Source: Brachyhypopomus gauderio (taxonomy: Eukaryota > Chordata > Actinopteri > Gymnotiformes > Hypopomidae). Taken from it: a DNA stretch of 64,000 nt. Positions within the stretch are counted from its first letter, which is position 1. Each line of letters opens with the position of its first letter. The notes beneath the pieces were generated by a model. The model did not search any database. It saw only the letters and a list, made by a program, of their open reading frames with translations, and had not been told where the DNA came from. Location: positions 5,767,758 to 5,831,757 of the forward strand of contig NC_135225.1 in assembly GCF_052324685.1 (NCBI RefSeq), written 5' to 3'. Shown here in pieces: positions 23,601-25,413 of this stretch. Made by a program: the position numbers and the translations under genes.

Positions 23601-25413
<1,813 letters not shown>

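Follow-up and report, generated by a model that had tools for sequence, protein, structure and literature searches.

A putative fish counterpart of the mammalian RPS24 3′ microexon array in Brachyhypopomus gauderio

The stretch of DNA analyzed here, denoted the window, comprises 64,000 nt of Brachyhypopomus gauderio contig NC_135225.1 (assembly GCF_052324685.1), and all positions are given in window coordinates. Its minus strand harbors an intact, intron-bearing rps24 gene with AG/GT borders at its exons and a reading frame that stays open throughout (Table 1). Coding exons 1-4 sum to 393 nt, corresponding to 131 codons. Translated through exon 4, the joined protein has 131 residues, terminates in ASVGAAGKK and matches the Pfam domain Ribosomal_S24e with an E-value of 3.2e-46. 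The combination of a spliced gene and an S24e domain protein identifies the locus as vertebrate RPS24 (eS24). Because of the AG/GT borders and the intact frame the gene is, as judged from its sequence, of the working type, and a processed copy is rejected. The 39-residue peptide of exon 4 finds a single match at E ≤ 0.001 in the 796.5-Mb assembly, namely rps24 itself, in a kind of count that is a lower bound for repeats and large families; no retrocopy of the rps24 mRNA was found by this search at the same threshold.

Further features are distributed over the window. On the plus strand, gene pieces of a microsomal triglyceride transfer protein-like large subunit extend from 32788 to 35487, with MTP_lip_bd matches at 34318-34632 and 35020-35487 and a PDB match at 32788-33129. 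A PTPlike_phytase domain match (E 3.5e-08) is located on the minus strand at 41071-41403 and perhaps belongs to paladin. PALD1 and RPS24 both reside on human 10q22. Four minisatellites reach a TRF score of at least 300 and are found at 8474-9076 (units of 49-115 bases), 36273-36778 (unit of 25 bases), 37927-38393 (18 bases) and 39606-39985 (14 bases), the 18-base repeat underlying long open frames on both strands. A stop-to-stop frame at 18537-18899 (+) contains a long Arg-Glu run, as would arise from a GA-type microsatellite.

Table 1. Features of the rps24 gene and its 3′ end in window coordinates
Feature	Position	Strand	Remarks
Start codon, end of exon 1	25411..25413	-	donor gtgagt; pyrimidine-rich leader immediately upstream
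Exon 2, 66 nt	24712..24777	-	open frame, AG/GT borders
Exon 3, 210 nt	24411..24620	-	Ribosomal_S24e domain in joined protein
Exon 4, 114 nt	24171..24284	-	ends GAAGKK in phase 0, donor gtaaaa
Pyrimidine tract, PTB-type motifs and acceptor ctgcag of exon a	24051..24082	-	
Exon a (putative), 3 nt, AAG (Lys)	24048..24050	-	counterpart of mammalian RPS24 exon a; top of 470 AG-N3-GT strings
Exon b (putative), 18 nt, AAATGATGTCAGGAAAAG (Lys, stop)	23589..23606	-	donor gtagag; counterpart of mammalian exon b
Intron after exon b, four GCATG (RBFOX-type), two of them TGCATG	23183..23588	-	motifs at 23573, 23524, 23401, 23339
Terminal exon	23110..23182	-	starts TGAGACC (TGA = stop); AATAAA 23131-23126; 3′ end approximate
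Predicted junctions at GGCAAGAAG			neither, TGAGACC; +a, AAG-TGAGACC; +b, AAATGATG; +a+b, AAG-AAATGATG

The 3′ part of the gene is arranged in the order exon 4, a 120-nt intron, exon a, a 441-nt intron, exon b, a 406-nt intron and the terminal exon. An initial annotation of this DNA had singled out the AAG codon at 24048..24050, lying between a ctgcag acceptor and a gtaatt donor, as a microexon with both joints in phase 0, and this assignment is borne out: exons 1-4 end on a complete codon, a 3-nt lysine exon is next in order after exon 4 at 24050-24048, and its flanks are the pyrimidine-rich ...TTTCTTCTTCCTTTCATTCTACTGGACTGCAG with the acceptor upstream and the donor GTAATT downstream. Splice sites were scored with matrices of general, not fitted, vertebrate frequencies, on which the scores depend. 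With these matrices exon a obtains 7.2 for its acceptor and 7.3 for its donor, as compared with 6.4-10.1 for the rps24 acceptors of exons 2, 3, 4 and the terminal exon and 4.9-10.2 for the donors of exons 1-4.

Strings of the form AG-N3-GT are common, 470 of them being present over both strands of the window, and exon a might thus be a chance AG-AAG-GT, a microexon look-alike which is never spliced in. Among the 470 it ranks first, by the sum of both scores as well as by the weaker site, although the runner-up at 2244 (+) nearly ties it by sum (14.5, from 7.9 and 6.5) and the base at donor position +5 of exon a is T rather than G. When the intron between exon 4 and the terminal exon was shuffled by dinucleotides, a 3-nt candidate of equal quality appeared in 2 of 2,000 cases. 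In addition, exon a encodes lysine, occupies the place of the mammalian exon a and precedes an 18-nt partner, which renders a chance origin improbable.

The partner, exon b, starts with AAATGATG and reads AAA TGA, thus lysine and stop, at 23606-23589, with the donor gtagag following from 23588, exactly 18 nt in; on sequence grounds it is the second microexon with a Lys-stop reading of an RPS24-type array. Its donor is modest (5.25 with the unfitted frequencies), and by sum or by weaker site exon b is outside the top three of the 524 AG-N18-GT strings; it is the one string among them with both scores at least as high as its own. In the dinucleotide shuffles of this intron, an 18-nt candidate matching exon b in quality turned up in 7 of 2,000 cases, and the pair of exon a and exon b was equalled together in none of the 2,000.

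In the initial annotation the AAATGATG segment had been proposed as the terminal exon, in which case the 3-nt microexon would merely add a lysine ahead of AAATGA. The immediate AAA-TGA stop agrees with such an ending. Yet the donor after exactly 18 nt reproduces the length of human exon b, neither AATAAA nor ATTAAA occurs between 23606 and 23132, and 406 nt further on an acceptor scoring 10.08, the highest among the six rps24 acceptors scored, opens an exon with an AATAAA, the sole one between exon 4 and 22395. A terminal exon b is rejected on the basis of this donor, the downstream acceptor and the AATAAA, and is scarcely credible; the segment is instead assigned as an 18-nt internal microexon and the terminal exon is placed at 23182. 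Beyond the AATAAA, at 22994 (-), a pyrimidine-rich, acceptor-like AG/TAG site was noticed as well (here and below, a slash within a sequence marks a junction). It was set aside as an alternative last exon, being past the likely 3′ end, and is possible but unlikely in this role.

A further reading of the 3-nt segment would be a recursive or tandem acceptor, CAG/AAG/GT. If the second AG were used, a zero-length exon would remain and a donor would be recreated; intron removal would then take two steps, with the selection of CAG or AAG determining whether the lysine is retained. Indeed, CTGCAGAAG/GTAATT has the AG/GT form of a ratchet site, a form which is however shared by any 3-nt NAG exon preceding GT. 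A second such site is present in the a-to-b intron at 23857 (-), tttaaag/gtagtg, with an acceptor score of 6.5 and a donor score of 4.8; this zero-length site is likely due to chance. As an acceptor, CAG is normally preferred over AAG, and ratchet sites typically reside in very long introns, whereas the introns here measure just 120 and 441 nt. Taken against the form of the two sites, both points speak against recursive splicing, which is considered very improbable.

With exons a and b as two separate microexons, four rps24 isoforms are obtained in silico: GKK with neither exon, GKKK with exon a, GKKK with exon b and GKKKK with both, the +a and +b isoforms encoding an identical protein. The suggestion of the initial annotation that inclusion or skipping of the microexon alters the C-terminal lysine count by one therefore holds in silico, with the qualification that exon b alone equals exon a alone. 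In the +b isoforms the stop codon ends 12 nt upstream of the last junction. By the usual 50-nt rule a stop that near the last junction does not trigger decay, and these transcripts would thus be spared. Skipping of all microexons yields KK-stop here, not PKE, and a PKE-type ending (AG-CCN-AAR-GAR-stop) is absent from exon 4 down to 21000. Over the same stretch no separate 22-nt exon c of the form AG-TGA-N19-GT was found, and of the 10 AG-N22-GT strings present as far as 21900 not one starts with TGA. Since the terminal exon itself starts with TGA and no exon c is found, the array corresponds to the a/b part and not to all three mammalian microexons.

In mammalian RPS24, passages of PMC8563012 describe microexons of 3, 18 and 22 nt in that order, of which the human exon a adds one lysine and is tied to epithelial cells. 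The mammalian exon a (ex4:3bp, +a-b+c) agrees with the fish exon a in the gene concerned, the position after exon 4, the length of 3 nt and the one lysine added, and, as far as the parts considered of PMC8563012, PMC11162997 and PMC12686416 go, in a pyrimidine tract carrying PTB-type motifs. The same passages of PMC8563012 state that the +a-b+c and -a+b+c isoforms give the same protein, from which a Lys-stop reading of the mammalian exon b can be deduced. This muscle-type exon b and the fish exon b share a length of 18 nt, the second place in the order and, with the mammalian reading so deduced, Lys-stop; their likeness rests on length, order and coding, as opposed to an alignment of the human bases. 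Unlike the fish gene, in which neither was found, the mammalian array has a separate exon c and a PKE tail. Because the array agrees with the mammalian exons a and b in order, in lengths and in what is encoded (Lys; Lys-stop), it very probably constitutes the fish ortholog of the known switch; this orthology is built on position, length, coding and order, as opposed to an alignment of introns. For Drosophila homothorax, which encodes a homeodomain protein unrelated to the ribosomal rps24, the part seen of PMC7392893 likewise describes an alternative exon of 3 nt that is conserved.

The mammalian 3-bp exon had been described in the initial annotation as regulated by tissue and by hypoxia. Its tissue dependence agrees with the literature: besides epithelial cells, it is tied to pancreas, thyroid and kidney in the passages considered of PMC11162997, and the portion seen of PMC12686416 links it to ER signalling and to mTOR or CDK4/6 inhibition. 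The hypoxia link, by contrast, concerns the 22-bp exon and not the 3-bp one, according to the same passages of PMC11162997. There, human GTEx junctions are apportioned as 61% ex4:22bp, 15% 3 bp, 14% ex4:ex6 and 10% 18 bp, and the 18-bp isoform has a share of 90% among the transcripts of muscle and of 20-30% among those of brain.

Two clusters of motifs in the fish gene are candidates for the control of this choice; both motif sets were picked after reading the papers, RBFOX as one among several (branch-point-like and YGCY being others). The 60 nt upstream of exon a contain 7 PTB-type motifs, as compared with 0, 1, 0, 1 and 1 upstream of exons 2, 3, 4, b and the terminal exon. At least 7 such motifs are reached in 11 of 4,121 AG-ended 60-mers of the minus strand and in 24 of 6,394 60-mers taken at 10-base steps. 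In the sections considered of PMC12686416, PTBP1 binds all three human RPS24 microexon regions, its depletion in MCF7 raises the 3-bp isoform 2.2-fold, and its loss raises the 3- and 22-bp isoforms. With respect to PTB, the fish array thus resembles the human one at exon a; human CLIP signals are also located at exon b and the last exon, where the fish shows no such likeness.

The second cluster consists of the GCATG motifs in the intron after exon b. Among the other rps24 introns, one GCATG is present in intron 1 and none in introns 2, 3, 4-to-a and a-to-b. Four or more copies were reached by 3 of 5,000 shuffled versions and by 28 of 6,360 stretches of equal size; the presence of at least two TGCATG is mildly unusual (76 of 5,000 shuffles, 166 of 6,360 stretches). 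A survey of human microexons reports, in the passages seen of PMC4317164, an enrichment of RBFOX motifs on the downstream side of alternative microexons and repression of many microexons by PTBP1. The GCATG cluster may be taken as a lead, which would fit the use of the human 18-bp exon in muscle and brain. A link between SRRM4 and RPS24 is not mentioned in the literature passage considered.

From these sequence signals and the coding of the exons we infer protein binding, tissue choice and an effect on the ribosome as follows. Exons a (AAG) and b (AAA-TGA) would act as cassette exons between exon 4 and the stop-starting terminal exon. Exon a would normally be skipped by competition of PTBP1 or a relative with U2AF on the pyrimidine tract, and would be included where PTBP1 is low. 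RBFOX bound to the downstream GCATG cluster would favour exon b, as in muscle and neurons. In this way the C-terminus of eS24, which is basic and exposed to solvent, would gain zero, one or two lysines. Alternatively, as +a and +b do not differ in their protein, the mRNA alone may be affected. Taken together, the locus very likely represents the fish ortholog of the vertebrate RPS24 3′ alternative microexon array, for which control by PTBP1 and RBFOX is proposed.

Solved structures provide a comparison for the predicted ends. A search with rps24 returned 59 distinct matching sequences at E ≤ 1e-20, the closest solved chain being 7oya (E 8.2e-80), which we take to be zebrafish and the tail of which reads GASGKKK. 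The tails of further eS24 chains, among the alignments shown, are GAGKKKK (u47673, with one entry named Isoform 3), GAGKKK (u131877), GAGKKPK plus one residue (u21413) and GAGKK running on (u97642, u126957), and the 5a2q chain has 130 residues, a length that fits a GKK ending. According to its in silico isoforms the fish rps24 can make GKKK and GKKKK, both of which are found in solved chains, as well as GKK. The zebrafish KKK tail could, though, stem from a different exon layout. Stray vertebrate relatives were not encountered in the viral and prokaryote collections, where 0 of 79 and 0 of 4 pattern matches, respectively, encoded one and two DNA patterns gave no match. Among the matches listed in a search of the open-licence literature by title and abstract start, none reports an rps24 microexon in a fish.

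Judging from the array, the RPS24 splice switch probably goes back to the first bony vertebrates. The split between fish and tetrapods dates back more than 400 million years, and a one-codon choice kept for that time, if true, argues for a function. An ancient vertebrate switch had been put forward in the initial annotation, and the same kind of 3-nt lysine exon in a fish is in line with it. The idea as such is not wholly new, because the surroundings of exon a have already been termed 'ultraconserved', in a single sentence of PMC8563012, the compared species being unnamed in the passages concerned.

Rather speculative, and on balance unlikely, is a more far-reaching reading in which a two-input lysine counter would predate the split of ray-finned fish and tetrapods. 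Loss of PTBP1 would add exon a, RBFOX would add exon b, and the lysines would sum to KK, KKK or KKKK. As +a and +b yield the same protein, two independent tissue inputs would have been kept by selection for one ribosomal output, and the PKE ending and the 22-nt exon would be later acquisitions, either tetrapod or mammalian.

If reads bear out the array, a core ribosomal protein would have retained a splice choice of one codon over long evolution, and the switch, if true, would be testable in zebrafish. Two microexons without a separate 22-nt exon would, if true, part the old core of the array from its later additions, and the fish layout suggests distinct regulators for exon a and exon b. The main interest of the locus thus lies in dating and dissecting a known splice switch.
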